Shown here piece after piece: positions 10,550 to 27,295 of a stretch of DNA of 33,734 bases. This DNA is from Asaia bogorensis (GTDB lineage: Bacteria; Pseudomonadota; Alphaproteobacteria; Acetobacterales; Acetobacteraceae). Numbering within the stretch: position 1 is the stretch's first letter; every line of letters begins with the position of its first letter. A model generated the notes under the pieces. It was not told the DNA's origin, searched no databases, and worked only from the letters and a program-made list of their open reading frames with translations. The position numbers were made by a program, and so were the translations under genes. The DNA is taken from contig CAMCDA010000027.1 in the NCBI GenBank assembly GCA_945873195.1, positions 1-33,734 on the forward strand, read 5' to 3'.

Positions 10550-10553
<4 letters not shown>

Positions 10554-13332: not shown

Positions 13333-13407
13333 CCAAACGTGTCTTGGGGCGAGGTTTTCGGTGGACCCCACCTGTCAGTCCCGCTGCTTGTCCCGCTGGT
13401 GGAGGGC

Positions 13408-13433
13408 CGGCCCGCGAACGGACCGGCCCCACC
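13408..13433. repeat. Strong GC hairpin downstream of the small peptide gene
   Basis: GGGCCGGCCCG and CGGACCGGCCC form an 11-bp stem (one mismatch) with a CGAA loop. It lies just past the stop of the 26-residue peptide gene on the minus strand. No T-run follows on that strand, so it may stabilise or slow the transcript rather than end it. Confidence 0.5.
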
Positions 13434-13434
13434 C

Positions 13435-13515: not shown

Positions 13516-13564
13516 CTCTCTGTCCTCCAGTGGTTAGCCGGCGGGCTCATTCCCGCCGGCTTTT
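13492..13564 (+). ncRNA. Hypothetical ~70-nt antisense RNA to the small peptide gene
   Basis: This is inferred from a weak upstream promoter and a strong terminator on the plus strand. Such an RNA would be complementary to the first codons, start codon and ribosome binding site of the 26-residue peptide mRNA, the geometry of a type I antitoxin. There is no direct evidence of transcription, and the 5' end is a guess. Confidence 0.25.
13537..13564 (+). terminator. Intrinsic terminator, plus strand
   Basis: GCCGGCGGG (13537-13545) and CCCGCCGGC (13552-13560) form a perfect 9-bp stem with a CTCATT loop, followed directly by TTTT. The T-run is on the plus strand, yet no plus-strand protein gene precedes it. 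It must end an unrecognised plus-strand transcript. It is oriented against rnd and kdsD. Confidence 0.8.
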
Positions 13565-13611
13565 CCATTTTGGGGACAAGATGTGAAGGAAGGGTTGATG
13601 CGCCGCCCGCG

Positions 13612-14265
13612 TCAGTGCGCGAACAGATCCGGGTCCTCGTAGCCGAGCAGGTCGAGGCGGCAGCGGGCGGGCAGGAAGTCGTAGCAGGCCTTTGCCAGCT
13701 CCAACCTGCCCTCACGGACCAGCAGCGCCTCCAGCCTTGCCCACAGCGCATGCAGATGCAGCACGTCGGACGCGGCGTAGGCAAGTTGTTCGCTGGTCAG
13801 GTCCACGGCGCCCCAGTCCGACGTCTGCTGCTGCTTGGACAGGTCGACGCCGACCAGTTCCTTGCACAGGTCCTTGAGCCCGTGGCGATCGGTGAAGGTG
13901 CGGACCAGCTTGGCGGCGATCTTGGTGCAGCGGACGGGGGCTACGGTCACGCCCAGGGCGTTCTGCAGCACGGCCACGTCGAAGCGCGCGAAGTGCATGA
14001 GCTTGACCACGTCCGGATCGCCCATCATCGCGCGCAGGTTCGGGGCATCATAGCCGCGGCCGCCCAGCGACACCGGAATCAACTGAACCAGATGGGCATG
14101 GCCGTCGCCCGCCGACATCTGCACCAGGCAAAGCCTGTCGCGATGCGGGTTGAGCCCCATGGTCTCGGTATCGACGGCGACGACCTTGCCGAGGCTCAGG
14201 CCATCGGGCAGGTCATGCCGGTGCAGGTGGATTGTCGCGCCGGCCATGAATTGTGTGATTCTCAT
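13612..14265 (-). CDS. rnd: RNase D-like 3'-5' exoribonuclease
   Basis: This is a DEDD-superfamily 3'-5' exonuclease of the small single-domain RNase D type, used in RNA 3'-end trimming. ExoI is VVAVDTETMGLNPHRDRLCL with the DxE pair. ExoII is KLMHFARFDVAVLQNAL. ExoIII is LAYAASDVLHLHALW with YxxxD. The HRDC domain of enterobacterial RNase D is absent, as usual for alphaproteobacterial short forms (about 205-220 residues). The ATG at 14265 (MRITQF) or at 14247 (MAGATIHL) could be the start. An earlier in-frame ATG lies inside tRNA-Leu and is unlikely. The gene starts seven bases after the tRNA-Leu 3' end, so tRNA and exonuclease are probably co-transcribed. Confidence 0.85.
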   Translation of the reverse strand: MRITQFMAGATIHLHRHDLPDGLSLGKVVAVDTETMGLNPHRDRLCLVQMSAGDGHAHLVQLIPVSLGGRGYDAPNLRAMMGDPDVVKLMHFARFDVAVLQNALGVTVAPVRCTKIAAKLVRTFTDRHGLKDLCKELVGVDLSKQQQTSDWGAVDLTSEQLAYAASDVLHLHALWARLEALLVREGRLELAKACYDFLPARCRLDLLGYEDPDLFAH

Positions 14266-14272
14266 GTGTTGT

Positions 14273-14359
14273 TGGTGCCCAGGAGAAGACTCGAACTTCC
14301 ACGACCTTTCGGCCACAGGTACCTGAAACCTGCGCGTCTACCAATTCCGCCACCTGGGC
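14273..14359 (-). tRNA. tRNA-Leu (anticodon CAG)
   Basis: An 87-nt cloverleaf reads on the minus strand: acceptor GCCCAGG pairs with CCTGGGC, there is a long class II variable arm, the T-arm contains GTTCGAGTC, and CCA is encoded. The anticodon loop TTCAGGT within stem CAGGT/ACCTG gives anticodon CAG, reading CUG, the dominant Leu codon in this GC-rich genome. Confidence 0.95.
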
Positions 14360-14413
14360 AACAGGCCCCGAGAAACCAACCATCGCGGTTCCAAGGGTGC
14401 GGGTAGGGCGCGG

Positions 14414-14442
14414 CATGTAGCGGCCAGCCGGAGCCTCGTCAA
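14414..14442 (-). promoter_or_regulatory. Candidate promoter of tRNA-Leu (and rnd)
   Basis: On the minus strand TTGACG (14442-14437) and TACATG (14419-14414) are separated by 17 bases. This places the start site about 45 bases upstream of the tRNA 5' end. The hexamers resemble those upstream of tRNA-Asn and tRNA-Val in this window. Confidence 0.45.
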
Positions 14443-14557
14443 CAGGCGTTCGACCCCAGGCGATGATTTTTCCGCCCGTCCTACATTTCTCCCATGGCGC
14501 CCGACGGCCGGCAGTGACAAATAACGGCGTGATTTGAATGCGGGAGCGGTGATCGCG

Positions 14558-15517
14558 ATGACGACGCGCAGCGTGGCGACGGTCTTTGGCGGCTCGGGCT
14601 TCATCGGGCGGTATGTGGTCAAGCGCCTGGCCCAGCTTGGGTATCTGGTGCGGGTGGCGGTGCGCGACCCGGAGGCGGCGTTGTTCCTTAAGCCGATGGG
14701 CAGCGTGGGGCAGGTGGTCCCGCTGTATGCGAGCGTCACCGACGACGCCTCGGTAGCCAACGCGGTGGCGGGCGCGGATGTCGTCGTGAACCTGGTGGGC
14801 ATCCTGTCCGAATCGCGTGGGGCCGGATTCCAGTCGGTGCAGGCCGAGGGCGCGGCTCGTGTCGCCAGCCTCGCCGCCGCGGCCGGGGTGGGGCGGCTGG
14901 TGCATCTTTCCGCGATCGGCGCCGACGCCGCTAGCCCGAGTGACTACGCGCAAAGCAAGGCCGCCGGCGAACAGGCGGTCCGGTCGGCCTTCCCGGGCGC
15001 CACGATCCTGCGCCCCTCGGTGGTATTCGGCCCCGAGGACCATTTCTTCAACCGGTTTGCCGCGATCGCTCGCCTCGCGCCGTTCATGCCAGTGATCGCG
15101 GGTGCGACGAAGTTCCAGCCCGTCTACGTGGGCGATGTGGCCGATGCGGTGATGGCCGCGATTGCCCGCCCGGACGCCGTCGGCGCCACCTATGAGCTCG
15201 GCGGCCCGCGGGTTTGGACGATGCGGGAGCTGATGGCCTATATCCTGGCCCAGACCGGGCGCGACAAGACGCTGGTCAACGTGCCGATGTGCATCGCGCG
15301 CATGCAGGCTGCGGTGATGGAGCTGATCCCGGGCAAGCCGCTAACGCGCGACCAACTGCTGCTGCTGCAACGGGACAATGTCGCTTCGGCCGGCGTTCCC
15401 GGACTGGCGGCGCTGGATATCGTGCCGACGCCGGTGGAATTGATCGTGCCGGCCTATCTGCGCCGCTTTCTGCCGGGCGGTGGACGCCGCCCGGTGCCGG
15501 CCGCGCGCGAAGCCTAG
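14558..15517 (+). CDS. Complex I NDUFA9-family NAD(P)-binding protein
   Basis: This is an atypical short-chain dehydrogenase/epimerase fold protein of the NDUFA9 group, accessory to respiratory complex I in alphaproteobacteria and mitochondria. The Rossmann dinucleotide motif is VFGGSGFIGRYVVKRLAQLG (about 10-29). VVVNLVGILSE, RLVHLSAIGADAASPSDYAQ (with a YxxxK-like YAQSK) and ATILRPSVVFGPEDHFFNRF are characteristic, as is the C-terminal FQPVYVGDVADAV. The ATG at 14558 gives 319 residues and places the glycine motif at the expected distance. The longer frame begins with an unlikely TTG at 14534. No complex I operon is nearby. Confidence 0.88.
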   Translation: MTTRSVATVFGGSGFIGRYVVKRLAQLGYLVRVAVRDPEAALFLKPMGSVGQVVPLYASVTDDASVANAVAGADVVVNLVGILSESRGAGFQSVQAEGAARVASLAAAAGVGRLVHLSAIGADAASPSDYAQSKAAGEQAVRSAFPGATILRPSVVFGPEDHFFNRFAAIARLAPFMPVIAGATKFQPVYVGDVADAVMAAIARPDAVGATYELGGPRVWTMRELMAYILAQTGRDKTLVNVPMCIARMQAAVMELIPGKPLTRDQLLLLQRDNVASAGVPGLAALDIVPTPVELIVPAYLRRFLPGGGRRPVPAAREA

Positions 15518-16771: not shown

Positions 16772-16826
16772 TGGCTCGGGCGGTAGGATTCGAACCTACG
16801 ACCAATCGGTTAACAGCCGATTGCTC
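16772..16826. repeat. attL: 55-bp copy of the tRNA-Asn 3' part
   Basis: These 55 bases are identical to 25894-25948, the 3' three-quarters of tRNA-Asn (CCA end through the anticodon arm into the D-arm). After 16826 the sequence diverges (CCGGCAAAAC instead of the D-arm and acceptor). This is therefore the truncated copy left at the far end of an integrated element. Confidence 0.95.
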
Positions 16827-16948
16827 CGGCAAAACATGGCGTCATCAGAGGCAACCTGAGAAGCGGAAAAATGGCCGTATTACACCAATTTTCGGGGGTT
16901 GGTTCGAACATGACATAACACCAGATAACACCAGTTGACGGGCAAATC

Positions 16949-16968
16949 TGTTGCCCCGATGTTGCCCC
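16949..16968 (+). promoter_or_regulatory. Candidate integrase arm-type sites, left end
   Basis: TGTTGCCCC occurs twice (16949-16957 and 16960-16968), 11 bp apart, between attL and the integrase start. The same pair recurs near the right end (25816-25836). Paired direct repeats on the same DNA face near both att sites fit arm-type binding sites of a tyrosine integrase. Confidence 0.5.
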
Positions 16969-16985
16969 GAGGGAGAGCAACCGGT

Positions 16986-18194
16986 ATGGCGCGGGTTACG
17001 TTGACGGACAGGTTCATTACCTCGGCGAAGGTCAAGCCGGACGCTGGCCGGCGCGATTACCAGGATACCCTGGTGCCAGGGCTGGCCGTCCGGGTTGCCG
17101 CGTCCGGGCATCGTAGTTTCGTCCTGATCGCCCGTTACCCGGCGAACCCCAAGAACCCGACCCGCCGCGCGCTAGGCGACTATGGCGAGATCAGCCTCGA
17201 CCAGGCGCGTCAGCGGGCGCGGGAATGGCTGGCGCTGATCCAGCGAGGCATTGACCCCAGGACCGAGGAAGCCCGTCAGCGGGCCGCCGCGCGCCGTCAG
17301 GAGGTGACCACCTTCGGGAAGGTCGCCGCGGAATTCCTGGACCGTCATGCAAGCACGCTCCGGAAGGCAGTAGACGCGCGGCGAAGCATCGAGGGGGAAT
17401 TCGTCCGACGCTGGCGGGATCGTCCGATCGGAGACGTTCGGCCGGAGGAAGTCGCGGAGGCGGTGCGGGACATCGTCAAGCGCGGGGCGCCATACCAGGC
17501 CCACAACGCTCTGGGCTACCTGCGCCGCATGTTCTCGTGGGCGATCGGGACCCATGAATTCGGCATAGAGGCATCCCCGGTTGAGCGGCTCCGGCCCCGG
17601 GATCTGATCGGCACAAGGGAGGCGCGGGAACGCGTCCTGACCGACGCGGAACTGCGGGCGGTGTGGGGCGCGGCGGCTGGCCTAGGGTATCCGTATGGGC
17701 CGCTATTCCACATGCTGATCCTGACCGGACAGCGGGAACGCGAAGTTGCCGACATGGCATGGTCCGAGGTCGCGCTGGGCAAGAACCTTTGGACGGTTCC
17801 GGCTTCCCGCATGAAGGGAGGGCGATCGCACGAGGTCCCCCTTGCCCCGGACGCCGCCGCTCTGCTGGCCGGGCTGCCCCGGTTCAACCTTGGCGACGCC
17901 GTGTTCACGACCACCAGCGGCGCCAAGGCGGTGAACGGTTTTTCGAAAGCCAAGGTTCGGTTGGACCGCACCAGCGGCGTTGAAAACTGGAAAATTCACG
18001 ATCTGCGCCGGACGGTTCGAACCCACTTTTCCGCCCTGCCGGTTCAGGACCTGGTGCGGGAACTGGTGATCGCACACGCCCGGCCGGGGCTGCACAAGGT
18101 CTATGACCAGCACACCTACCAGTTGGAGAAGCTGGAATGCCTCACTCTTTGGGAGGCGCGGCTGCGCGGGATCGTCGCTTCTTCTTCGCCGTAG
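16986..18194 (+). CDS. int: Tyrosine integrase, P4 type
   Basis: This recombinase integrates and excises the element at tRNA-Asn. The product is 402 residues from the ATG at 16986. It has an N-terminal DUF4102/arm-binding domain (LTDRFITSAKVKPDAGRRDY ... RRALGDYGEISLDQARQRAR, 1-90), a SAM-like core-binding domain (about 100-200) and a catalytic domain. Visible catalytic residues are Arg in LTGQRERE (about 249), HDLRRTVRTH (about 338-347), IAHARPG, and the nucleophile Tyr in KVYDQH (about 372). A longer frame opens with TTG at 16935. That start would translate through the arm sites and lacks a ribosome binding site, so 16986 is preferred. The 3' end overlaps the opposing regulator gene by 53 bp. 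Confidence 0.93.
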   Translation: MARVTLTDRFITSAKVKPDAGRRDYQDTLVPGLAVRVAASGHRSFVLIARYPANPKNPTRRALGDYGEISLDQARQRAREWLALIQRGIDPRTEEARQRAAARRQEVTTFGKVAAEFLDRHASTLRKAVDARRSIEGEFVRRWRDRPIGDVRPEEVAEAVRDIVKRGAPYQAHNALGYLRRMFSWAIGTHEFGIEASPVERLRPRDLIGTREARERVLTDAELRAVWGAAAGLGYPYGPLFHMLILTGQREREVADMAWSEVALGKNLWTVPASRMKGGRSHEVPLAPDAAALLAGLPRFNLGDAVFTTTSGAKAVNGFSKAKVRLDRTSGVENWKIHDLRRTVRTHFSALPVQDLVRELVIAHARPGLHKVYDQHTYQLEKLECLTLWEARLRGIVASSSP

Positions 18195-18720
18195 GCGCCG
18201 CGGCGGGCGCGGGCTGCTCGGGGTTGAGTATCGCGGCGATGGAGTCCAGGGTTTGCCGCAAGGTCTGGCCGGCGGGCGGGGCCTTTGGCTCCCCCAGGGC
18301 CGAGCGCAAACCGTCCTTTATCTGGCCCACATCAATCTCAATCATGACGAGCGGGCTAGCAGGCGCGGGCGGCTCCAAAAGGTCACCCTTGTCGTCCGCC
18401 GCAAGGTAATATACATTCCTATCCGAGTAATGTTTCATTCTTACATATTTGTATTTGAAGTCATCCCATTCTAGGGCCTTCACTACTTCCGCCATATTCG
18501 ACAGTTGCCTGAGGGCGATACCCGCGTCCGAACCCGCGCGCAAAATGGCCAGCCGGATTGCGACTGAAAGCCGCACCTGGCGTTCCCGCCCGCGCCCACG
18601 GCCGGAGGCTTCAATTTCGATCCCCGGCAATCCCCGCCGCGTCCATGTCGTGACCGTGTCCTCGGTTAGTCCGATGGCCTGCATGACCTTCGTCAGCGGA
18701 TAGGTCGGTTCGTCTCGCAT
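18142..18720 (-). CDS. MerR-like HTH regulator of the satellite
   Basis: The 192-residue product begins MRDEPTYPLTKVMQAIGLTE DTVTTWTRRGLPG, a winged-helix/MerR-like DNA-binding start, and continues with a QVRLSVAIRLAILRAG helix. A central region (about 90-140) of unknown fold and a Pro/Ala/Lys-rich basic tail (KKKRRSRAAAP) follow. An in-frame ATG at 18765 would add 15 residues. It is transcribed divergently from the AlpA-like gene across a 90-base region with three TGGTCCG/CGGACCA half-sites. That is the arrangement of a repressor controlling early satellite genes. Its stop lies inside the end of int, so the two are convergent. The repressor role is inferred from position. Confidence 0.7.
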   Translation of the reverse strand: MRDEPTYPLTKVMQAIGLTEDTVTTWTRRGLPGIEIEASGRGRGRERQVRLSVAIRLAILRAGSDAGIALRQLSNMAEVVKALEWDDFKYKYVRMKHYSDRNVYYLAADDKGDLLEPPAPASPLVMIEIDVGQIKDGLRSALGEPKAPPAGQTLRQTLDSIAAILNPEQPAPAAAPTAKKKRRSRAAAPPKE

Positions 18721-18737
18721 CTTGTGCCCGTTTTTTT

Positions 18738-18797
18738 TGGTCCGTGGTCTTGCCGGACCAATCATATTAGATTACGTTCCGGCATGTAGACGGACCA
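18738..18797. promoter_or_regulatory. Divergent control region with three heptamer half-sites
   Basis: TGGTCCG (18738-18744) and CGGACCA (18754-18760 and 18791-18797) form one inverted pair and one direct copy. On the plus strand TTGCCG (18750-18755), a 17-base spacer and TACGTT (18773-18778) form a plausible promoter for the AlpA-like operon, and the middle half-site overlaps it. Occupancy would block the promoter. Confidence 0.5.
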
Positions 18798-18810
18798 TAG
18801 AGGCATTCTG

Positions 18811-19014
18811 ATGGACGGACAATATCTTCGGTTCAGTGATCTGAAGACCCGAGGTGTGGTGAACAACCGGACCACGCTTCAGCGGTGGATCGCGACGCAG
18901 GGCTTCCCGCCCGGCTTCCTGTTGGGGCCGAGCACGCGGGTTTGGACGGAGAAAGAGATCGCGGAATACGAGGCGCGGCGGCGGGGCGCATCGGACGGCC
19001 GGAAGGCAGCTTGA
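18811..19014 (+). CDS. AlpA-like HTH protein (activator/excisionase)
   Basis: This 67-residue winged-helix protein of the AlpA/Xis type reads YLRFSDLKTRGVVNNRTTLQ RWIATQGFPPGFLLGP, then TRVWTEKEIAEYEARRR. In P4-like elements such proteins activate integrase transcription or direct excision. It is the first gene of the plus-strand early operon. Its TGA overlaps the ATG of the next small gene (TGATG). Regulation by the divergent MerR-like protein is likely from position. Confidence 0.8.
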   Translation: MDGQYLRFSDLKTRGVVNNRTTLQRWIATQGFPPGFLLGPSTRVWTEKEIAEYEARRRGASDGRKAA

Positions 19015-19217
19015 TGCACGCCAACCATTACGCGGATCGCGCGGACCGCATGCATGAGCGTTTGCTTGCTCGGTGCTGGGGGATGCCCCCTCCGGAAAAT
19101 GAAACCCCCCGCTCCGGTGGCACGGAAACGGGGGGCGAATGGAAGGTAGGTCGGTCCTCCTTCAATACTTCTTCCGGCCGGGCCGATCAATGGATTTCGG
19201 GCGAGGTGGTGCCATGA
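19014..19217 (+). CDS. 67-residue protein between AlpA-like gene and primase
   Basis: The protein starts MHANHYADRADRMHERLLAR, with later Pro-, Gly- and Thr-rich sequence and no recognisable domain. Coding is supported by exact overlaps at both ends: TGATG with the AlpA-like gene and ATGA with the primase gene. That fits translational coupling of three genes. Function is unknown; it may simply couple translation or regulate the primase. Confidence 0.55.
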   Translation: MHANHYADRADRMHERLLARCWGMPPPENETPRSGGTETGGEWKVGRSSFNTSSGRADQWISGEVVP

Positions 19218-19354
19218 GCGGCGCCGTAGGCACCCCGGAGGCGTTCACCCGCCGGCCCATGGCCGGGATCGCGCCGGGCATCATCGACACGGACCCGGCC
19301 AAGACCAAGCCCGAGCCTATCAGCTTGGAGTCCCTATCCAGTCAGAAGTGCTAG
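19214..19354 (+). pseudogene. N-terminal fragment of primase-helicase, ended by TAG
   Basis: The ATG at 19214 (ATGA overlap with the preceding gene) opens a 46-residue reading frame that stops at TAG 19352-19354. The same frame continues directly as VAWQAEKRGDDTTKVPYVAI into the large primase ORF. Related proteins have Trp at this point (RWVAWRAEKR-like), and TGG to TAG is one base change. So this is the displaced start of a 761-residue protein, not a separate gene. Confidence 0.8.
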
Positions 19355-19420
19355 GTTGCTTGGCAGGCGGAAAAGCGCGGGGATGACACGACCAAGGTCC
19401 CCTATGTCGCCATCGGCAAG

Positions 19421-21499
19421 ATGGCGCGCGCAAACGCTGGCCCGTGGCTGACCCGTCGGGAGGCCACGGGCTTGAACCTAAAGCTACCGAACCCGCTCGC
19501 GATGGCTGGGGTAGGGATTGAGTTTTGCGACCTGGACTATGGGCGCAGCATCGGCGGGATCGACCTGGACGCGTGCCGTGATCCTGAAACGGGAGAGATC
19601 GAGGCTTGGGCCAAGGGCATCATCGGCGGCTTCAACAGCTACACCGAGATCAGTCCGAGCGGCTCGGGCGCGAAGGTCTACTTCATGTTCACCACGGCGG
19701 ACTGGCCCATGCTTCGCGAGGCGATGGGCAAGGGTTCCAAGTTTGGGAGGCAGTTTAAGCGGGGTGGTGGAAAGCATCCGCCCGCGATCGAGTTGCATCT
19801 CGGGAACAGGTATTTCTGCGTCACCGAGGATATTGTTGCGGGGATGCCGCACGACTTCCGGCACGTCTCAACCGAGACCATTATCTCCCTGATAACCGAG
19901 ACCGGGCCGGCCTTTGCCGGCAAGGCCAAGGCGACGACGACCGCCAAGACGCCGAACAAGTCCAAATTGAATGATGCAGTTGGCGACGCGGCACCCGATC
20001 TTGTTGACCGGATAGCGGCCGCTTGCGCTGGGAAGGCTTGGTTCGCGAAGCGGTGGAATGGTGATTGGGCCGGCATTTCCGACACGTCGGGTTCTGGGCA
20101 GGCGTTCACCGTCCTGGCCGTTCTGAAGCGGGCCGGGTTCCCCTATGCCGATGCACTCGCCGCGCTGCGCCTGAACCCGCACACAAGCGAATGGATGGCC
20201 GCGAAGGGTGAGGCGGCTGGGCAACGTGAACCTGGCCGCATGTGGGACGCGATCGAGGTGAAGCCGGAGGCGAAGCCGCGGCCAACAGGGAAGGACGCGC
20301 CGGCGGCCGGCTGGACATCGGACCTTGCCTATGACGACAAGGGCAACCCCATTCCCAACCTCGCCAACGCCGCTACGGCGCTGCGTAGGGCGCCGGAACT
20401 GGCCGGGCTGCTGAGCTATGACGAAATGACCCGGGCCGCTCTGGTGACGCGCACGCCGCCCGGAAGTCGCATGTCGCCCGTGACCACCCCGCGCCCTGTG
20501 ACCGATGCGGACGTGGGAGCCGTCCAGGAATGGATACAAAACGCGGCGATCGCGCGCCTTGGCCGCGAAGTGGCGCACCAGGCCGCCGACATGGTTGCCA
20601 GGGAAGCCGCGTTCCACCCGGTTCGGGACTATCTCGCCGCGCTTCAATGGGACGGGAAGCCGCGCATAGGCCACTGGCTGACCTATTACCTCGGCACCGA
20701 CCCGAGCGAATATACCGCCGCTATCGGCAAGATGTTCCTCGTTGCCATGGTCGCGCGGATCATGCGGCCAGGGTGCCAGTGTGATTACGTAATGGTGTTG
20801 GAGGGCCAGCAAGGCGCTTTGAAATCGACCGTTTGCGGGGTGCTTGCAGGGGAATGGTTCTCGGACGGCTTGCCGGACATCCGCAACAGTGATGCTGTCC
20901 GGCTGTCCATGCACCTTCGCGGAAAGTGGCTGATTGAGATTGCGGAATTGTCGGCAATGTCAAAAACCGCAGTGGAAGACATCAAAAAATTCATCACGCA
21001 ACGGAAGGAAATCTACACCCCAAAATTCGGCCGCAAGGAGGTTGTCGAGGATCGGCAGTGTCTGTTCATCGGCACCACGAACCGGAGCGTCTACTTGCGC
21101 GACGAAACCGGGGGCCGGCGGTTCTGGCCGGTGAAGGTCGGCACGATCGACATTGACGCGCTCCGTCATGACCGGGACCAGCTTTTCGCGGAGGCGATGG
21201 TTGCATACCGGCGCGGGGATCAGTGGTGGCCCGATCGGACCTTCGAAGACGAGCACATTAAGCCGGAGCAGGACGCCCGGTTCGAGCACGACATATGGGA
21301 GCAACCTGTTGCCGTTTGGCTGCGGGGAAAGGCGAAGACCACGGTCGATGAAGTCGCGCGGCTGGCGCTGATCATTGAGACGCCAAGGCAAGGGACGGTC
21401 GAGCAACGGCGGATTACAGCCATCTTTCAGCGCTTGGGGTGGGAGGCGAAGCGGGACAAGGATGGCCGGTTTTGGGTCCTGTCAAATGCCGAGGCATGA
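19421..21499 (+). CDS. Primase-helicase (prim-pol + VapE), N-terminally interrupted
   Basis: This is the replication protein of the satellite. In the full frame numbered from 19214, an N-terminal primase-polymerase-like region has the metal-binding IGGIDLDACRDPETGEI (about 113-129) and SPSGSGAKVYF. A C-terminal VapE/superfamily 3-like helicase domain follows, with VRDYLAALQWDGKPRIGHWL, Walker A LEGQQGALKS (about 529-538), GKWLIEIAELSAM (Walker B) and LFIGTTNRSVYLRDETGGRR (sensor/Arg). The frame is intact except for the amber codon at 19352. The first ATG after it, at 19421, would give 692 residues. It lacks a good ribosome binding site and removes about 69 residues before the prim-pol motif. 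The helicase part is complete. The product may still work by re-initiation or suppression, or be dead. Confidence 0.85.
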   Translation: MARANAGPWLTRREATGLNLKLPNPLAMAGVGIEFCDLDYGRSIGGIDLDACRDPETGEIEAWAKGIIGGFNSYTEISPSGSGAKVYFMFTTADWPMLREAMGKGSKFGRQFKRGGGKHPPAIELHLGNRYFCVTEDIVAGMPHDFRHVSTETIISLITETGPAFAGKAKATTTAKTPNKSKLNDAVGDAAPDLVDRIAAACAGKAWFAKRWNGDWAGISDTSGSGQAFTVLAVLKRAGFPYADALAALRLNPHTSEWMAAKGEAAGQREPGRMWDAIEVKPEAKPRPTGKDAPAAGWTSDLAYDDKGNPIPNLANAATALRRAPELAGLLSYDEMTRAALVTRTPPGSRMSPVTTPRPVTDADVGAVQEWIQNAAIARLGREVAHQAADMVAREAAFHPVRDYLAALQWDGKPRIGHWLTYYLGTDPSEYTAAIGKMFLVAMVARIMRPGCQCDYVMVLEGQQGALKSTVCGVLAGEWFSDGLPDIRNSDAVRLSMHLRGKWLIEIAELSAMSKTAVEDIKKFITQRKEIYTPKFGRKEVVEDRQCLFIGTTNRSVYLRDETGGRRFWPVKVGTIDIDALRHDRDQLFAEAMVAYRRGDQWWPDRTFEDEHIKPEQDARFEHDIWEQPVAVWLRGKAKTTVDEVARLALIIETPRQGTVEQRRITAIFQRLGWEAKRDKDGRFWVLSNAEA

Positions 21500-21613
21500 C
21501 ATCATGACATCTGATGACGTCATTTCCCCTATAGAGTCCTATACGCGTGCACGCGCGCACACACACGGAACGTCCTGTATAGAGAAAATGACGTCATCAG
21601 ATGTCATGATGTC
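21498..21613. other. Candidate replication origin: 28-bp perfect inverted repeat
   Basis: The arms at 21498-21525 and 21586-21613 are perfect 28-bp reverse complements. Each holds two ATGACATC-type units and the palindrome TGACGTCA. The 60-base spacer contains partial inverted CTATAGAG/TATAGAG copies and a 28-base uninterrupted pyrimidine-purine alternation (21540-21567) that favours Z-DNA or melting. It begins inside the stop codon region of the helicase gene, where satellites such as SaPIs carry their origin. No protein gene crosses it convincingly. Confidence 0.65.
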
Positions 21614-21660
21614 ACCACACACGCTGTCAGCCCTTGCCGCGCGTGTGTCCCGTCTTGGAC

Positions 21661-21990
21661 ATGACCGGCGCGGTGACGCGTCCTGGAAAGCCTGGGGGGG
21701 TATTTCCCGTGGGTGACCGCCTCCCCAACCGCCTGGCCCGCCCCCGGACCCCGGCCGACCGACAACGGGACTACCGGCGCCGGCAGGGGAAGGGCGAAGT
21801 CGTCGCGCCCGTGATCGTGTCGCACGCCATCGTGGAGCTGCTGCTAAACCTCCGCTGGATCGAGGCCGAGGCGTCCGAGGATCGCCGCGCCGTGGCCGAT
21901 GCGATCCGCCGCGTCCTGTCCGAAGCGGCACGTAACGGGATGGGCGATGGCCGGCTTCCTGAGTGCGGACGGAAAGCCGGCCCGCGCTGA
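21661..21990 (+). CDS. Small basic protein after the origin-like repeat
   Basis: The 109-residue product from the ATG at 21661 contains RTPADRQRDYRRRQGKGEVV, then APVIVSHAIVELLLNLRWIE and ADAIRRVLSEAARNG, a basic segment plus two predicted helices. The frame is open from 21634, and GTG at 21709 is another possible start. It looks like a small DNA-binding-type protein, but I recognise no family. It sits between the origin-like repeat and the capsid gene. Codon use is GC3-rich as in its neighbours. Confidence 0.6.
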   Translation: MTGAVTRPGKPGGVFPVGDRLPNRLARPRTPADRQRDYRRRQGKGEVVAPVIVSHAIVELLLNLRWIEAEASEDRRAVADAIRRVLSEAARNGMGDGRLPECGRKAGPR

Positions 21991-22066
21991 CCGGAACTAT
22001 CCACAAGCGGCACATTTCCGTTACGCGTCAACACAGCCTTCCGGCCGCGCCGTCCATACTGCGGAA

Positions 22067-23110
22067 ATGACAAAGCCACCCATCCCCCTCCGCCCCGCCC
22101 CGGCTGCCTCGGCCGGGGAAAACCTCGTTCGCGCCGCGTTTGCGACGTTCGCCGCCCGATGCGGCGGGACGTTTGTTGGCGATGAAGTAGAGAAACGGTA
22201 TCCCGGCGATGAGGCCGCGCTGGCGATCGTGACCCGCGGCGCCGTGCCCGTCGGCACCACGACAACCTCCGGCTGGGCATCGCAGCTTGTCCAGACCGCG
22301 GTGGGCAGCTTCCTCGCCGACCTGGCGGGCATGTCGGCGGCGTCGCGGTTGATGGCGCTGGGCATCAAGCCCGCGACGATCCCGCCGGGTGCGCCATCGC
22401 TGGGCTTCCATTTCCCGAACCGACCGGCCGGGCCTGTTGCACGCGGCTGGGTATCCGAGGGCGATCCGATCCCGGCGGCGTCAGCCAACCTGGAACTTCT
22501 GGACATCGTCCCCGGGAAGCTCGGCGTTATCATGGTCGGCAGTCGCGAACTGTTGCGCCGCTCGAACGCGGAGCTGGTGTTCCGCCGCATCTTGATTGAA
22601 GACGCGAGCATGAGCCTCGATAGCGTGTATTTCGGGGCCGCCGCCGCGACCGCCACAAGCTCGGCTGGACTGCTCTACAACGTGACCGCCACCCCCACGA
22701 CCGGCGCCTTCCGGGATGACCTACAACAGCTTGCCGAGATCGTCGGCGCTGGCGGTAGCGGCCAGGTGGCGTTTGTCACCGGACCCGGCCGCGCGGCTGC
22801 AACCGCCCTGCGGACCGACATCAACGCGCTGGTCCTCCCTTCAATCGCAGTCGCGGACGATACAGTCATAGCGGTGGACCCGCTCGCCATCCTGCACGCC
22901 TACGGACCCGAGCCGGACATTGCCGCCAGCGGCGAAGCCACATTGCATATGAGCGATACGCCGCTTCCGATCGTCTCGACGACCGCCGCGGACCCGGTGA
23001 CCAGCCTTTACCAGTCCGGCCGCGTCGCGTTGCGGATGCTTCTCGACGTGGGGTTTGTGAAGCGTCGCAGCACGGCGGTTGCATATACGTCGGGCATCTA
23101 CGGATGGTAA
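22067..23110 (+). CDS. HK97-fold major capsid protein
   Basis: The 347-residue protein resembles HK97-type phage major capsid proteins. An N-arm (FVGDEVEKRYPGDEAAL) is followed by an E-loop/P-domain stretch, GWVSEGDPIPAASANLELLD, and VMVGSRELLRRSNAELVFRR, which matches the conserved spine helix region. LDSVYFG and a C-terminal A-domain (FVTGPGRAAATALRTD, IAVDPLAILHAYGPEPDIAA, IYGW end) complete it. No N-terminal scaffold (delta) domain or fused protease is present, and no protease gene is nearby. The ATG at 22067 gives about 20 residues before the N-arm; the frame extends upstream to 21899 without support. Two small genes overlap downstream. It would form the element's own or a remodelled capsid. 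The fold assignment is by motif only. Confidence 0.75.
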   Translation: MTKPPIPLRPAPAASAGENLVRAAFATFAARCGGTFVGDEVEKRYPGDEAALAIVTRGAVPVGTTTTSGWASQLVQTAVGSFLADLAGMSAASRLMALGIKPATIPPGAPSLGFHFPNRPAGPVARGWVSEGDPIPAASANLELLDIVPGKLGVIMVGSRELLRRSNAELVFRRILIEDASMSLDSVYFGAAAATATSSAGLLYNVTATPTTGAFRDDLQQLAEIVGAGGSGQVAFVTGPGRAAATALRTDINALVLPSIAVADDTVIAVDPLAILHAYGPEPDIAASGEATLHMSDTPLPIVSTTAADPVTSLYQSGRVALRMLLDVGFVKRRSTAVAYTSGIYGW

Positions 23111-23364
23111 CCGAACGGAATTCGTCGGGGCGCGCCCTTGCCGCGGCGAATGAGGAAGGGGCCGGCGATGCGCCGGGCATGGCCGCAATGACGTCGGCCC
23201 CTGACTCGGTGCTGTATGCCGCGCTATGGCGGGCGTTCGTCGCGCAGAAGGAACTGAACGCGGCCATGCGGGCGCATATCGCGGTGCTGGAAGCCCGGGT
23301 TGCTTGGTATGACGCCGCCGCCGAGTCCCCGGAACCGGCACCGCCGCCGAGGACGTTGAACTGA
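23104..23364 (+). CDS. 86-residue protein coupled to the capsid gene
   Basis: The ATG at 23104 overlaps the capsid stop by seven bases. The N-terminus is disordered (RNSSGRALAAANEEGAGDA) and the C-terminus is helical (YAALWRAFVAQKELNAAMRA, then HIAVLEARVAWYDAA) with a heptad-like pattern. The N-terminus resembles that of the next protein. A capsid-associated or scaffolding-like role is inferred from position and coiled-coil character; no family is recognised. Confidence 0.6.
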   Translation: MVTERNSSGRALAAANEEGAGDAPGMAAMTSAPDSVLYAALWRAFVAQKELNAAMRAHIAVLEARVAWYDAAAESPEPAPPPRTLN

Positions 23365-23840
23365 TGGCGCCCAAACAGGATTCGTCGGGGCTTCCCCCGG
23401 CCGCGACGGATGGCGAGGGGGCGGAGCCATTGCAGGGCACGGCGGGCAAGCCAGCCCGCGAGGCTCCGCCCCCACCAGCCACGCGAAACGCCGATGGCAC
23501 ACTCCGCACGATCCGCACCGGCGGAGACCGTGCCGAATGCTCCGAGGCGTATTTTCGGGAGGCGCTGGTCGAGGTTCCCACCCTGCTGCGCGGCTATGCC
23601 CAAACCGGCCCCGACCCGGGCAAATTGGTTGGCTACACGCAGGGCCAGCATCGCGCGGTGCGGCTGGCCCTGTGCCAGCTTTGGGCCGAGGCGCGGACGG
23701 CTGAGCATATGTCGGAGACGCGGCGCCGTGACGCGATCGCCCAGGACGAGGCCACCCATGCCCTGCTGGCGGAGCTGGAAGGCCGGATAGCGGCGCTGGA
23801 GGCCAAGGTCGCGGCGCTGGAAGGTCGAGGCGCCCGGTAG
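23364..23840 (+). CDS. 158-residue coiled-coil protein, capsid operon
   Basis: The start overlaps the preceding stop as TGATG. A disordered Pro/Ala N-terminus beginning PKQDSSGLPPAATDGEGAEP is followed by a helical part (YFREALVEVPTLLRGYAQTG, then GQHRAVRLALCQLWAEARTA) and a C-terminal coiled coil (ALLAELEGRIAALEAKVAAL). It is the third gene of the capsid operon. It is not recognisable as terminase, portal or head-tail connector. It may be a scaffold, size-determining or decoration protein; that is inference only. Confidence 0.6.
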   Translation: MAPKQDSSGLPPAATDGEGAEPLQGTAGKPAREAPPPPATRNADGTLRTIRTGGDRAECSEAYFREALVEVPTLLRGYAQTGPDPGKLVGYTQGQHRAVRLALCQLWAEARTAEHMSETRRRDAIAQDEATHALLAELEGRIAALEAKVAALEGRGAR

Positions 23841-23933
23841 CCCCCGGGGGGGGCACCCGCCGAGCCTCAGGCGATGATGGGCCGATTTACCAATGAGGGA
23901 CCATCCGGAGGGTTTGAAGCCTCCCCAACTTGA

Positions 23934-24278
23934 TTATCCCGGCCGAACCAAGAGGATATCAAACGTGAACGGACACGGCGCTGGCGCTACCGGACGCGGC
24001 GGGGCAGGGGTGCGGCCGATGTTGGCCGTGTTCATCGTGGCAGGCCTGCCGGTCTTCGGGTGGATGAAGGTGCGGGGCTTCTGGTCGTGGTCCAGTTCAA
24101 CCACCCGGTCCGGGTAGGGGTTCTCATACTGGCGGTTTCCGCCAGTATCGGGCATCGGCGCAGGTCGCGGCGGCGCCGGGCGGAGCTTGCCGACGGTTTC
24201 ATGGGTGACCCCACATCGCCGCGCGATCTCCCGGTCGGACCAAGCCGACCATTCCGCATCATGGATCAGCCGCAGCAC
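23934..24278 (-). CDS. HTH protein, likely C-terminal remnant of a ParB-like family
   Basis: From the GTG at 24278 the product (114 residues) starts MLRLIHDAEWSAWSDREIAR RCGVTHETVGKLR, a helix-turn-helix. The frame is open upstream to about 24352, reading NSNHGQRRTNEDKRRAV. This NxxHGxRRTNxDKRRAV-WSDREIARRC arrangement is what follows the ParB nuclease domain in ParB-like regulators. The tail TGRPATMNTANIGR also resembles their C-termini. The ParB domain itself is missing and no good start precedes the open region. This is probably a remnant, or a stand-alone HTH expressed after the RHH gene. Confidence 0.5.
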   Translation of the reverse strand: MLRLIHDAEWSAWSDREIARRCGVTHETVGKLRPAPPRPAPMPDTGGNRQYENPYPDRVVELDHDQKPRTFIHPKTGRPATMNTANIGRTPAPPRPVAPAPCPFTFDILLVRPG

Positions 24279-24331
24279 CGCGCGCCGCTTGTCTTCGTTG
24301 GTCCGTCGCTGCCCATGGTTGGAGTTGCGCC

Positions 24332-24535
24332 CTAAGCTGACCTCTCGGCCTTCAACGCCGCCGCGATCAGACGACGGACCGCTTCCGGCCGGGATGGCGC
24401 GTCCGGCTGCGACTCGATCCAGGCGTCCAGGGCGGCAAGCTGTTCCGGGTGAAGGCGCACCAGCACGGGAACCCCCTGGCCCGTAGGCGCTGGCCCTCTG
24501 CGTTTTCGCGGTATCAAGGTTTCTTGCGTTGTCAT
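24332..24535 (-). CDS. Ribbon-helix-helix protein
   Basis: The 67-residue product starts MTTQETLIPRKRRGPAPTGQ and continues VPVLVRLHPEQLAALDAWIE, then DAPSRPEAVRRLIAAALKAE. A short beta strand plus two helices is the CopG/Arc-type RHH fold. Such proteins are antitoxins, copy-number or autoregulatory repressors. No toxin gene is adjacent. A 10-bp inverted repeat spans the start codon, suggesting autoregulation. It is divergent from the ParB-like gene at 24620. Confidence 0.7.
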   Translation of the reverse strand: MTTQETLIPRKRRGPAPTGQGVPVLVRLHPEQLAALDAWIESQPDAPSRPEAVRRLIAAALKAERSA

Positions 24536-24548
24536 CGGAACCTTGATA
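24512..24548. promoter_or_regulatory. Inverted-repeat operator at the RHH gene start
   Basis: TATCAAGGTT (24512-24521) and AACCTTGATA (24539-24548) are perfect 10-bp arms with a 17-base spacer that contains the RHH ATG. Position over the 5' end suggests autorepression by the RHH protein. Confidence 0.5.
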
Positions 24549-24619
24549 TCAGAGACGCGGCCGAGCGGAAAGGGTGAAGGCTTCCCGCCCGGCCTAACCT
24601 CAAGCAAGGAGTTGGGTCC

Positions 24620-25432
24620 ATGCCCGAAGCTACAAACACGCCTACCATCCCCCGCACGATCGGCCTAATTCTGGACGAGTGCGCCTCCGCTACCATGAAG
24701 TTGAACAGCGCCACGCGGATCGTGGACCATCTGAACATTTCTCGGAGTCCGGTGGAGACCAACGACCTGGTGGCCGTGGTGTTCACCCTGGAGCATGTCC
24801 AGGAGGAACTGGAACGTCTCCACGCGGAGGCCGCGCGCCTCTATGAAGTGCGCCCCGCCTGGATACCCGACCAGCCCGTGACGGCGGAACCGCGGGCGCG
24901 TGACGGATACATCTTGGTCGGCGGGCTGCATCGCCTGGAAGCAATGGTCCAGCGCGGCGCTACACACATCCCCGCCGTCGTGGTCGCAATGGATGACCTA
25001 GTCGCCACCATAGCCGAGTGCGACGAGAACCTGTGCGGGTCGAACCTTTCGCAATCCGAACGAGCGTTGTTCACGCGGCGGCGGAAGGAGGCTTACGAGG
25101 CGCTGCATCCTGAGACGAAGGCGACGAACAATGGCGGTGGCGGGAGGAATAACGAAACTCGTCGCCAAGTTGGCGACGATATAGCCGACCGTTTCACCGC
25201 CGACGCCGCCACCAAAACCGGACAGTCTGAGCGGACAGTCCAGCGCGATGCCGAACGCGGGGAGAACATCCCCGCGCCTATCCTCGCGGAAATCGCGGGC
25301 ACCGATCTGGATAAGGGCGTCGTCCTCGATCGCCTCAAGAACGCAGACGACGCGGCGGCCGAACTCGACACCATTCGCGCCCGCTGGCCGGCATCTTGTC
25401 CGACTGCGACGAGCACACGCACATGCTGGTGA
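24620..25432 (+). CDS. ParB-like protein with a shortened nuclease domain
   Basis: The 270-residue protein is preceded by AAGGAG. Residues about 1-80 are helical (TRIVDHLNISRSPVETNDLV, then FTLEHVQEELERLHAEAARL). The second half of a ParB domain follows: QPVTAEPRARDGYILVGGLH RLEAMVQRGATHIPAVVVAM, ECDENLCGSNLSQSERALFT and RRKEAYEALHPETK. The first half of the ParB fold, including the usual start with the catalytic strand, is absent. An HTH-like region (ATKTGQSERTVQRDAERGEN) and a short tail end the protein. ParB relatives act in partition or as CTP-dependent DNA-binding regulators; here activity is doubtful because half the domain is replaced. The end overlaps the next gene by 37 bases if that gene starts at 25396. 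Confidence 0.7.
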   Translation: MPEATNTPTIPRTIGLILDECASATMKLNSATRIVDHLNISRSPVETNDLVAVVFTLEHVQEELERLHAEAARLYEVRPAWIPDQPVTAEPRARDGYILVGGLHRLEAMVQRGATHIPAVVVAMDDLVATIAECDENLCGSNLSQSERALFTRRRKEAYEALHPETKATNNGGGGRNNETRRQVGDDIADRFTADAATKTGQSERTVQRDAERGENIPAPILAEIAGTDLDKGVVLDRLKNADDAAAELDTIRARWPASCPTATSTRTCW

Positions 25433-25737
25433 CGGCCGCGCGCTTGATCGATCACCTTGAAGGAAGCGAGGCGAATATCGAGTGCACGGACCTAGCCCCC
25501 ATTCGGTCGGTCGTGCGGACTGCCGCCGATGCGCTGGCCGGACTGCATGCCCAAGCGTGGGCGATCTTCAAGGCCGAGCGGGCCGAGGCCGAGGCGAAGC
25601 GGACGCCTGGGCCGCTCGACGCGCTGGCGTTGAAGATCAACCGGGGCCGCATGAGGGAAGCGGCCGAGGTAGCGCTGGCGCACCTGGCCGAACTGGACCG
25701 ACTCGACGAGGTTAACGGCGGGACCGCTGCCGCCTGA
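25396..25737 (+). CDS. 113-residue helical protein paralogous to the ParB-like N-terminus
   Basis: The segment MLVTAARLIDHLEGSEANIE followed by CTDLAPIRSVVRTAADALAG aligns with residues 30-75 of the preceding ParB-like protein: TRIVDHL / ARLIDHL, ETNDL / ECTDL and ELERLHAEA / ALAGLHAQA. A helical C-terminus (RMREAAEVALAHLAELDRLD) follows. The start is TTG 25396, or more likely ATG 25423, which gives 104 residues. It is the last gene before attR. Function is unknown. Confidence 0.6.
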   Translation: MSDCDEHTHMLVTAARLIDHLEGSEANIECTDLAPIRSVVRTAADALAGLHAQAWAIFKAERAEAEAKRTPGPLDALALKINRGRMREAAEVALAHLAELDRLDEVNGGTAAA

Positions 25738-25815
25738 CCGAACGGGGAGGATGGCGCCGCGAGATGCTGCACCTTCCTCCGACCCCGGCCGAACCCATGC
25801 GCGAAATCTGCGGAT

Positions 25816-25836
25816 TGTTGCCCCAGATGTTGCCCC
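25816..25836 (+). promoter_or_regulatory. Candidate integrase arm-type sites, right end
   Basis: TGTTGCCCC occurs at 25816-25824 and 25828-25836, 12 bp apart. It is the same nonamer pair and orientation as near attL, and lies 58 bp inside attR. Confidence 0.5.
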
Positions 25837-25893
25837 AGCCGAAACTGGGCAACCCGTCGATGGGGATTTTGGCGCTTAACCCATTGTAAAGAA

Positions 25894-25948
25894 TGGCTCG
25901 GGCGGTAGGATTCGAACCTACGACCAATCGGTTAACAGCCGATTGCTC
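25894..25948. repeat. attR: 55-bp copy within intact tRNA-Asn
   Basis: Identical to 16772-16826. The element supplied this 3' part of the gene, so tRNA-Asn stayed functional after integration. Confidence 0.95.
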
Positions 25949-25968
25949 TACCGCTGAGCTACGCCCGA
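25894..25968 (-). tRNA. tRNA-Asn (anticodon GTT), satellite integration site
   Basis: A 75-nt cloverleaf on the minus strand: acceptor TCGGGCG pairs with CGCCCGA, the D-arm is GCTC...GAGC, the anticodon stem-loop is ATCGG-CTGTTAA-CCGAT, the T-arm contains GGTTCGAATCC, and CCA is encoded. The 3' 55 bases are duplicated at 16772. A good promoter lies 19 bases upstream. Confidence 0.96.
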
Positions 25969-26031: not shown

Positions 26032-26058
26032 TGTTAGCGCAAAGTAGGAATGTCCCCT
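26032..26058 (+). repeat. Left inverted end of the IS remnant
   Basis: 27 bp starting TGTTAGCGCAAAG and ending AATGTCCCCT match the reverse complement of 27269-27295 at 24 positions. A second AATGTCCCCT lies 24 bp inward (26073-26082), probably another transposase binding site. Confidence 0.85.
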
Positions 26059-26100
26059 CTCCGCGAAATGAGAATGTCCCCTTTGTCGTTGCGTTGCGGG

Positions 26101-26275
26101 TGTTTGCCTTGCGTGAGCGGTGGCCACGGTTTGGCGAGTTGATCCAGATCGACGACGGCTCGCAGGGCTGGTTGAAGGATCGTGGTCCGCGCCGCACGCT
26201 GATTGTGTTCATCGACGACGCCACGGGTCGGCTGACGGCGCTGCATTTTGCCCCGACGAAAACCCGGCGCGCGGC
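26101..26275 (+). pseudogene. Transposase fragment 1 (first catalytic Asp region)
   Basis: The reading frame ALRERWPRFGELIQIDDGSQ, then WLKDRGPRRTLIVFIDDATG and RLTALHFAPTK, is the start of an integrase-type DDE core; IQID and FIDDAT carry the first metal-ligand Asp region. The HTH half that should precede it is missing: the fragment starts only about 20 bases after the inner terminal motif. It breaks off at KTRRA. Confidence 0.8.
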
Positions 26276-26383
26276 ATCGGCGGCTGCGGTGGCATGGCCC
26301 GATCACCGGCCAGGTCGGCGCGGTGCCGCCGGAACGGTGATTGGGCGCGCCAGAGCCTGTCGCGGCTCAGGGCTTGGCGAGGC

Positions 26384-26857
26384 TCAGAGCTTGTCGGCCT
26401 TCGTCGCGAAGATGATCTTCCAGTTGGACTCGCCCTTGCGGATGACGTTGGCTGTGTCGGCGAGGAACAGGTTCTTGTGCGCCGCCTCGGTGCTGTTGAT
26501 GTAGAGTTGGCCGTCGACGATCTTCCACAGGGTCGGGTTGATGACGACCTTCTTGCCCTTGCTCGCGCCGGCGGAGCACCAGCCGCCATAGGCGGGCACG
26601 TATTTGGCAGGGTTGGCGGCGAACAGGTCGCGGTTGGCGGCCGAGGCGAAGTACCAGGTGGCGCCTTGGAATTCGGACGCGAACTGCTTCGATCCCTGGG
26701 TGGGCGCGCCGGCCGTGTGGTAGGCGACAACGTCGTAGCCGCCGATCACGGCGCCGTCCTTTATGTAGTGCTCGTCCACGGCAAGGGCCGCGGAGATCGG
26801 CATGAGGGACGCGAAGGCGGCAACCACGGCAACGCGCAGCAGGCTGATATCTGGCAT
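26384..26857 (-). CDS. Secreted YHS-domain protein
   Basis: The product is 157 residues from the ATG at 26857. It has a signal peptide (SLLRVAVVAAFASLMPISAA, cleavage probably after ALA at about 27) and a YHS-type domain: GAVIGGYDVVAYHTAGAPTQ, FQGATWYFASAANRDLFAAN, KYVPAYGGWCSAGASKGKKV and LWKIVDGQLYINSTEAAHKN. Related periplasmic YHS proteins are suspected of metal binding or handling, but function is not established. The conserved Cys in GGWCSAG is encoded by TGC, so it is not a selenoprotein. The gene lies antisense inside a broken transposase. A longer frame to 26932 lacks a signal-like start. Confidence 0.85.
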   Translation of the reverse strand: MPDISLLRVAVVAAFASLMPISAALAVDEHYIKDGAVIGGYDVVAYHTAGAPTQGSKQFASEFQGATWYFASAANRDLFAANPAKYVPAYGGWCSAGASKGKKVVINPTLWKIVDGQLYINSTEAAHKNLFLADTANVIRKGESNWKIIFATKADKL

Positions 26858-27020
26858 GGGGAACCTCTCAATGGGTTGAATCGGCCCTGCTCGCCAGGGC
26901 GACCGAGCCGCATGATGCGGATCAGCTATCAACCAGACTCGGGGTAGCGCCGATCTGTTACAGCGCCTCGGACAATTTCCGGATCATCGACCCAGGGGAT
27001 TTTCGGCTTGTCGCGTGAAC

Positions 27021-27149
27021 CCAGCATATTCGGATCGGCACGGGATTTTCCGCGTCAATGCGAAGGACGTGCAAAGCGGTGACCGCAAGACGGAAGTCGG
27101 TCGCAGGTGCGATCGTTTGAAGATCGATCCGATCCAGGCGCTGACCCCG
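27021..27149 (+). pseudogene. Transposase fragment 2 (second catalytic Asp region)
   Basis: PAYSDRHGIFRVNAKDVQSG followed by RLKIDPIQALTP is the next block of the same integrase-type transposase as fragment 1, carrying the second catalytic Asp (YSD). About 15-20 residues expected between the fragments are lost, and about 745 bp of other DNA with the YHS gene lies there instead. The Glu-bearing C-terminus is absent. Confidence 0.8.
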
Positions 27150-27268
27150 CGGGCGAGAATTTTTCCCCCTCTCGCGCTGTATGAGGGCTGTTCGCGCGTG
27201 GCGCGGACCGTCCTTCTAAAGCGCGGGAGGGGGCAAGCGCGCAGGGGACATTTCCAATTGGGAGAACC

Positions 27269-27295
27269 AGGGGACATTCCTACCTTGCGTTGACA
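27269..27295 (-). repeat. Right inverted end of the IS remnant
   Basis: The reverse complement starts TGTCAACGCAAGG and ends AATGTCCCCT. A second AGGGGACATT copy lies inward at 27243-27252, so both ends have the same two-site structure. Confidence 0.85.

Follow-up and report, generated by a model that had tools for sequence, protein, structure and literature searches.

Gram-negative phage-inducible chromosomal islands (PICIs) are not known to carry genes for a terminase large subunit, portal, tail or lysis. Capsid-forming PICIs (cf-PICIs) are defined by their own capsid, protease, portal and terminase genes. P4 possesses a P4-type integrase, an AlpA-like switch and a primase-helicase, and P4-like satellites carry capsid and transactivation genes of the psu/delta/sid type. 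Here we analyzed a 9.1-kb element at positions 16772-25948 of a 33,734-nucleotide stretch of Asaia bogorensis DNA (contig CAMCDA010000027.1; the whole stretch is called the window below). Our analysis favors, with a probability of roughly 0.65, a PICI-like phage satellite in tRNA-Asn, in which a capsid homologue, its delta (scaffold) domain truncated, acts together with a miniprotein bearing heptads to redirect the capsid protein of a helper phage to small heads.

Gram-negative PICIs with a capsid gene are already known: 21 of the 29 reference elements were reported to have one (PMC10111431), and PmCI172 has a capsid homologue and produces small capsids (PMC6092414). Ccm, the capsid homologue of SaPIbov5, is required for small capsids, and its delta domain is 44 residues shorter than that of the helper protein (PMC5052747). 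In small T=4 procapsids, Ccm makes up the pentamers; by itself it forms no shells, and delta domains of 87 and 128 residues were described (PMC8569155).

The window element is a small island with an integrase gene, an AlpA-like regulator and a primase gene followed by an origin-like repeat, as in EcCICFT073 and PmCI172. The tyrosine integrase (16986-18194, plus strand, 402 amino acids (aa)) has Arm-DNA-bind_3, Phage_int_M and Phage_integrase domains. Genes for a MerR-like helix-turn-helix (HTH) protein (18142-18720, minus strand) and an AlpA-like HTH protein (18811-19014, plus strand) follow, each with a weak match below the Pfam cut-off; the MerR-like protein is probably the repressor of a divergent switch. 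The AlpA-like protein is 42% identical over 50 aa to that of an island in the genus mate G031 (locus L013) and 50% identical over 38 aa to that of a Sinorhizobium plasmid locus (L005). The gene for a VapE-type primase-helicase (19421-21499, plus strand, E=8e-73) encodes 692 aa from the first ATG after an in-frame TAG. A perfect 29-bp inverted repeat begins at its stop codon (arms 21497-21525 and 21586-21614; origin-like region 21497-21614). None of 100 shuffles gave a repeat of 10 bp or longer. Origins of Gram-negative PICIs lie just 3' of pri and consist of two sets of iterons on either side of an AT-rich stretch; in the window element, no 9-mer occurs three times in this region, and the middle between the arms is 44% AT.

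A first-pass annotation, made from the sequence alone, had called the block satellite-like and listed integrase, VapE, capsid and ParB/ribbon-helix-helix (RHH) genes, a divergent switch and an origin-like repeat, with no terminase, portal, tail or lysis genes. The named genes found profile matches, those of the switch being weak, and the anatomy bore out the satellite-like character. No portal, terminase or protease gene was found in the element by profiles built for this analysis, and no portal, terminase, protease, tail or lysis family was found among its scanned open reading frames (ORFs) by Pfam and PHROG. Further, the genes of the element do not lie within a longer prophage here. The int, alpA and pri genes expected of a Gram-negative PICI are all present, the AlpA match being below the Pfam cut-off. 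With P4 the element has in common the P4-type integrase, the AlpA-like switch and the primase-helicase, whereas no psu- or sid-like Pfam family was seen among its scanned ORFs and a capsid homologue stands in their place. The element differs from Gram-negative PICIs in its size (9.1 kb compared with 10-20 kb), in the RHH/ParB genes at its right end and in its minus-strand genes (18142-18720, 23934-24278 and 24332-24607). Gram-negative PICIs are described as unidirectional (PMC6092414). Further criteria for them are a specific att site that prophages do not use, and induction, packaging and interference that depend on a phage. Because unidirectional rightward transcription is not seen in this element, we did not class it as a Gram-negative PICI.

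The block is bounded by 55-bp direct repeats, which a repeat search showed to be identical over the 55 bp, as first annotated; a wider stretch of 61 bp is 97% identical between the copies. The proximal attachment (att) copy (25894-25948) lies inside an intact tRNA-Asn(GUU) gene, the integration target (25894-25968, minus strand; ARAGORN and Rfam). The distal copy (16772-16826) corresponds to the 3' part of this tRNA, departs from it beyond the shared 55 bp and gave a weak tRNA-like score of 34 bits compared with 75 bits for the intact gene. The integrase gene is located at the distal att copy rather than at the intact tRNA, an arrangement that had already been noticed and that recurs in G031. 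Two TGTTGCCCC sites, 11 bp apart, are present at the left end (16949-16968, starts 16949 and 16960) and two, 12 bp apart, at the right end (25816-25836, starts 25816 and 25828), all on the plus strand. These are the only four copies in the window and all lie inside the element ends; shuffling predicted about 0.09 copies in the element. Pairs of TGTTGCCCC also lie inside both ends of the G031 island and at the left end of the locus in G019 (L014, a cut contig), the integrases of which are 69-70% identical to that of the window, and a TGTTGCCC pair precedes int in L098 and L099. The TGTTGCCCC pairs are probably integrase arm sites.

The capsid gene (22067-23110, plus strand) encodes an HK97-type protein of 347 aa from its preferred start, with a short N-terminal arm. 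The protein matched the PHROG major head protein (E=6e-19); the Pfam scan gave no match. A search with the single protein had found one relative in the class besides the window, and it was replaced by a search of 387 class and 397 phylum genomes (E<=0.001) with a profile (A1) built from five capsid proteins (window, L004-L006 and L026). This search detected 30 distinct capsid places outside the own genome, of which 29 contexts were read; over the analysis as a whole, the contexts of G761:C77 and G597:C163 were left out. In 11 of the 29 (L026, L071-L077, L079, L080 and L081), the surroundings of the capsid gene yielded no portal, terminase or protease, a layout that we call capsid-only. This fraction is no estimate of frequency, because A1, built from the five proteins named, tilts the search towards such capsids. 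An integrase accompanied the capsid gene in nine of the 11. In L074, it is split over two overlapping frames (13363-14636), and this copy is probably broken. L079, a contig of 9.9 kb, starts at an AlpA-like gene; in L081, VapE is present with no integrase in view. Plasmids of Sinorhizobium sp. K101 (L005) and Cupriavidus oxalaticus (L006) carry loci of a like plan. Including the window, the capsid-only loci thus number 14, with Alpha- and Betaproteobacteria among them and an integrase in 12. Their absence calls combine profiles and the reading of gene lists; portals of other types escape these profiles, as seen in L102, L106, L110 and L113, where portal- and terminase-sized neighbors were recognized by reading only. 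Peptide-pattern searches of IMG/VR detected no close relative of the window capsid, and such a search detected none of the Sinorhizobium capsid. A scan with a VapE peptide pattern returned three viral contigs (L120-L122), and the profiles found VapE only there.

Nearly all capsid-only proteins have short arms, the arm being defined as the residues before the E-loop Glu. The arm was 105-146 residues long in 13 of the 14 loci and 188-247 residues long in all 23 measured unfused capsid proteins of phages and capsid-forming satellites (Mann-Whitney P of about 4e-6, a value that disregards kinship). The groups were set by gene context and not by length; L075 was accordingly counted as capsid-only, L083 with the fused proteins, and L067 was kept, while a first test had omitted L083 and L075. 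Starts of the other loci came from the gene finder or from annotators. For the window protein, the arm is 130 residues from 22067, 170 from 21947 (the gene finder's choice) and 186 from 21899, the latter two being the alternative starts. We preferred 22067, because it fits the other loci and avoids an overlap with a 109-aa gene upstream, so that the window value is not independent evidence. Eight capsid-forming elements with integrase, portal and protease (L024, L056, L090, L105, L111, L114, L116 and L119) all retain a long arm of 194-229 residues. The arm was left unmeasured in contig-cut, incomplete or broken capsid genes (L004, L052, L053, L055, L082, L084 and L089) and in five loci with frames of at least 594 aa (L102, L103, L106, L110 and L113); L082, with a weak protease match, was excluded from the capsid-only group. 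In the solved capsid chains 8gta and 9d9w, about 55 and 70 residues, respectively, precede the same Glu (counted by hand on profile alignments). Capsid-only proteins therefore probably keep a short extension and not the full delta domain. A literature search on capsid size, the delta domain and satellites found no survey of arm length in Gram-negative satellites, most subscription papers being outside our reach.

We placed the capsid core without the arm on a tree of 31 rows, in which L075 and L083 were labeled as phage and L067, the gene of which ended early, was omitted. The capsid-only label needs five changes, and four of these are forced by well-supported branches; they may be gains or losses, and L080 and L081 form long branches. 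The sister of the L026 capsid on this tree is a protease-fused phage capsid. Because the label needs at least four changes, the short arm probably arose more than once. Such repetition, and the lack of the same genes in 11 of the 29 contexts outside the own genome, argue against a decayed prophage in which a few genes were kept by chance. The matching att and arm sites at both ends and the overlap of the capsid gene with the next gene speak against it as well. We consider such a remnant very unlikely, with a stop codon in frame before VapE and a degraded insertion sequence next door as the points in its favor.

The gene overlapping the capsid stop (23104-23364, plus strand) encodes an 86-aa protein with heptads and no family match. 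A short gene (57-205 aa) lies directly 3' of the capsid gene in 13 of the 14 capsid-only loci, with a gap of -25 to +28 bp. A crude heptad pattern was found in its product in eight of the 14, and L005, L071 and L074 look alike by eye (11 in total). Of 14 controls tried, 11 gave a downstream gene; two of these, both protease genes, contained the heptad motif and the other nine did not. This difference would suit a satellite that builds its own small shell, from a capsid protein without the full delta domain and a coiled-coil miniprotein acting as a scaffold in trans, with portal, terminase and tail from the helper. In contrast, Ccm alone was unable to form shells (PMC8569155). A similar start also occurs in the phage L050, in a longer protein encoded after the portal, so that the gene may be a relic of a head-fiber gene. 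Building of an own shell has little probability in our view.

Most likely, the mode of action is that of a Gram-negative PICI carrying a capsid redirector of the Ccm type. In this scheme, the integrase would insert and excise the element; its arm sites would be the TGTTGCCCC pairs, and the att core would be the tRNA 3' part. The MerR-like and AlpA-like proteins would act as the switch. Replication would be started by VapE, the probable site being the inverted repeat that follows the VapE gene, and a helper phage would supply terminase, portal, tail and lysis functions. The late pair, the truncated-delta capsid homologue and the overlapping miniprotein, would co-assemble with the helper capsid protein and redirect it, in the manner of SaPIbov5 Ccm, to heads small enough for about 9 kb. 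Like SaPIbov5, the element has a lone HK97-type capsid homologue outside a capsid operon, with an apparently shortened delta region and no protease found (PMC5052747, PMC8569155); from the preferred start, its arm of 130 residues is shorter than the 188-247 of the controls, which are not the helper's own protein. Unlike the window element, SaPIbov5 is a Gram-positive PICI with a cos site, and the accessible parts of these papers mention no coiled-coil partner. The comparison concerns layout and domain length.

Alternatively, the capsid homologue of the satellite could be an anti-phage poison that enters and blocks the procapsids of helper or foreign phages without any benefit to the packaging of a small genome. 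Expression of Ccm alone reduced the helper titer 10^3-10^4 fold (PMC5052747), and the capsid genes of PICIs were reported to be unnecessary for transfer (PMC10111431). However, small capsids were observed with SaPIbov5 and with PmCI172, both of which have capsid homologues (PMC5052747, PMC6092414), and the adjoining heptad-bearing gene would suit head building better. We regard the poison as unlikely.

Several results weigh against the favored reading. The report that PICI capsid genes are unnecessary concerns helper-assisted transfer (PMC10111431, citing PMC6092414). L075 is capsid-only and has a long arm of 206 residues, and with the earliest start of the window gene the arm would be 186 residues long, almost as long as the shortest control arm (188). 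A single-sequence prediction of the fold, with a mean predicted local distance difference test score of 33, was set aside. The TAG at 19352-19354 ends a 46-codon ORF (19214-19354, plus strand) in the same frame as VapE, which suggests a damaged copy or an assembly error. Since this TAG is in frame and four PHROG primase profiles begin about 35-50 positions before the called VapE protein, the primase gene may be interrupted, and the ORF is possibly its severed start. No collinear empty site was found in the tRNA-Asn neighborhoods compared (12 fetched loci, L009-L014, L016-L021 and L023). Finally, the helper was not identified: PF05065 capsids in the genome were found only on the satellite-like contigs C142 and C147.

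A satellite-borne capsid gene could be taken for a relic or for a spare copy. Most of the scaffold arm seems to have been lost repeatedly from elements that lack a portal and a protease of their own, while capsid-forming satellites retain it, which implies a definite job for the gene. Arm length would then be a sequence rule separating capsid redirectors from capsid builders, and the Ccm principle would reach beyond staphylococci to Gram-negative satellites, in testable form. A wider proposal is that satellites of Proteobacteria repeatedly captured a capsid gene, trimmed its scaffold domain and added a heptad miniprotein as a trans scaffold, so that this two-gene cassette alone sets the small head. 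On the tRNA-Asn platform of this bacterial family, the morphogenesis gene would be exchangeable like a cartridge: one element has a short-arm capsid, others have a lone tape-measure protein (tail length). We hold this proposal to be possible and rather doubtful.

The first-pass annotation had further suggested a satellite family specific to this bacterial group and a search of related genomes for tRNA-Asn sites with and without the block. The tRNA-Asn integrase, the arm sites and the AlpA-like gene are indeed common to genus mates and an Acidiphilium. In contrast, the capsid-only type is spread over Proteobacteria, and within the own family (200 genomes) none of the 19 contexts read, from 20 capsid places outside the own genome, looked capsid-only. 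At least seven family elements instead have integrase, portal, protease and capsid genes and are of the capsid-forming type (L024, L055 with broken frames, L056, L111, L114, L116 and L119), in addition to two in the own genome (C142 and C147). Among 33 genomes of the genus, tRNA-Asn had a full-length match in 26, was split by an insertion in three, was present as a truncated copy only in two (G019 and G004) and had no match in two (G002 and G027). Judging from single tRNA-Asn copies, most of these sites appear vacant. A truncated copy of 53-55 bp with an adjoining related integrase is present in four of the 33 genomes (the own genome G000, G031, G019 and G004). The integrases of the latter three are 54-70% identical to that of the window, and a related AlpA-like gene accompanies them in G031 and G019. 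None of the four loci read as a prophage, two of the four contigs being cut. G015 has a 91% tRNA-Asn copy near a distant integrase (L022, 27% identity). Outside the genus, integrase identity was 67% in Acidiphilium sp. PA (L097) and 62% and 56% in two metagenome-assembled genomes. VapE relatives are located on Komagataeibacter, Gluconobacter and Roseomonas plasmids (five records). By sequence kinship, the integrase and VapE relatives point to Acetobacteraceae as the host family. The lack of a collinear empty site follows from the flanks: the flanking proteins of the window had no match in the compared neighborhoods, as far as the loci reach, and its left-flank gene sits on other contigs in genus mates.

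Two of the integrase-sharing islands could be read at length, that of G031 (17.8 kb, at the same tRNA-Asn) as a whole and that of Acidiphilium up to the contig end. Both hold other late genes, encoding a tape-measure protein and terminase subunits, and no capsid gene was seen in either over this extent. In L013, a tape-measure gene (9749-11686, PHROG E=7e-92) occurs with a terminase-small-subunit-like gene (7238-8149), the AlpA-like gene and a primase gene. In L097, tape-measure matches (16856-18274 and 19249-21117, PHROG E=2e-10) occur with AlpA-like, primase and terminase large subunit genes, and a sigma-factor-like gene (12356-13159, PHROG E=3e-32) lies between the AlpA-like and primase genes. 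In the cut contig L079 of G734, with no integrase in view, a tape-measure gene (5811-8300, PHROG E=6e-285) adjoins the capsid-only gene. No other tail gene was seen at these three loci, which are possibly satellites with a lone tail-length gene. A literature search on the tape measure with satellites or PICIs found no such lone gene; here too, most subscription papers were outside our reach.

Group I introns (Rfam RF00028, E from 4e-20 to 3e-19) split the tRNA-Asn genes of the genus mates G008 and G025 (L019 569-817, minus strand; L020 638-886, plus strand, and 1444-1706, minus strand), and that of G006 is probably split by an intron too, as its split pattern is the same. The introns sit directly after the anticodon, inside the 55-bp att core, and might shield the site from integration.

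The own genome contains further satellite-like elements. Both the end of contig C100 and the start of C142 fall within a capsid gene, and the two share a stretch of about 49 identical residues. Jointly, they hold primase- and RepA-like genes (recognized by reading), terminase large subunit (TerL), RHH/ParB pieces, and capsid, protease, portal, AlpA-like and integrase genes. Like cf-PICIs and this element, the window element has an integrase, an AlpA-like gene, a primase and a satellite-borne capsid. Unlike the capsid-forming elements read here, which carry protease and portal, in some cases terminase, and a long-arm capsid, it has a short-arm capsid only and lacks the defining set of cf-PICIs. 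Capsid-forming satellite-like elements occur on C100 (from base 11177), C142 (1-4001) and C147 (1-3959), and elements of this kind make up many of the capsid places detected in the family. TerL was detected on C100, C303 and C32, and portals on C142, C147 and in two partial places. No full prophage was recognized in the 400-contig assembly, in which tail genes were not searched genome-wide.

The right end of the window element encodes an RHH-like repressor (24332-24607, minus strand, PHROG E=9e-6) and a ParB-like protein of 270 aa (24620-25432, plus strand, PHROG E=1e-20). Its RHH/ParB DNA is 75% identical to C100 over 264 bp and 89% over 89 bp in the ParB-like gene, and the repressor is 73% identical over 45 aa to the copy on C100. 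From these matches, modules seem to have been exchanged between the satellite-like elements of this genome. The ParB-like protein is similar to partition proteins of the RepB type, as would suit a plasmid-like integrative island spreading either by conjugation or through replication of its own, with ParB/RHH for partition and the capsid gene as cargo. However, no relaxase or ParA family was among the matches of the scanned ORFs, and the RHH/ParB piece is common to a terminase-bearing satellite-like element; such an island is highly improbable.

The remaining plus-strand genes of the element encode the 109-aa protein upstream of the capsid gene (21661-21990, no useful family match), a 158-aa protein with a C-terminal region resembling a coiled coil (23364-23840, coiled-coil models below the cut-off) and a 104-aa protein (25423-25737, no family match), and an HTH-like protein with weak matches is encoded on the minus strand (23934-24278). 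PADLOC gave one weak HTH match only, and the idea of defense cargo was dropped. The Rfam scan for RNA elements returned tRNAs only. Just right of the tRNA (26032-27295), a degraded ISNCY transposase piece (E=3e-14) lies between inverted 27-bp copies and has relatives in the same genome on C32.

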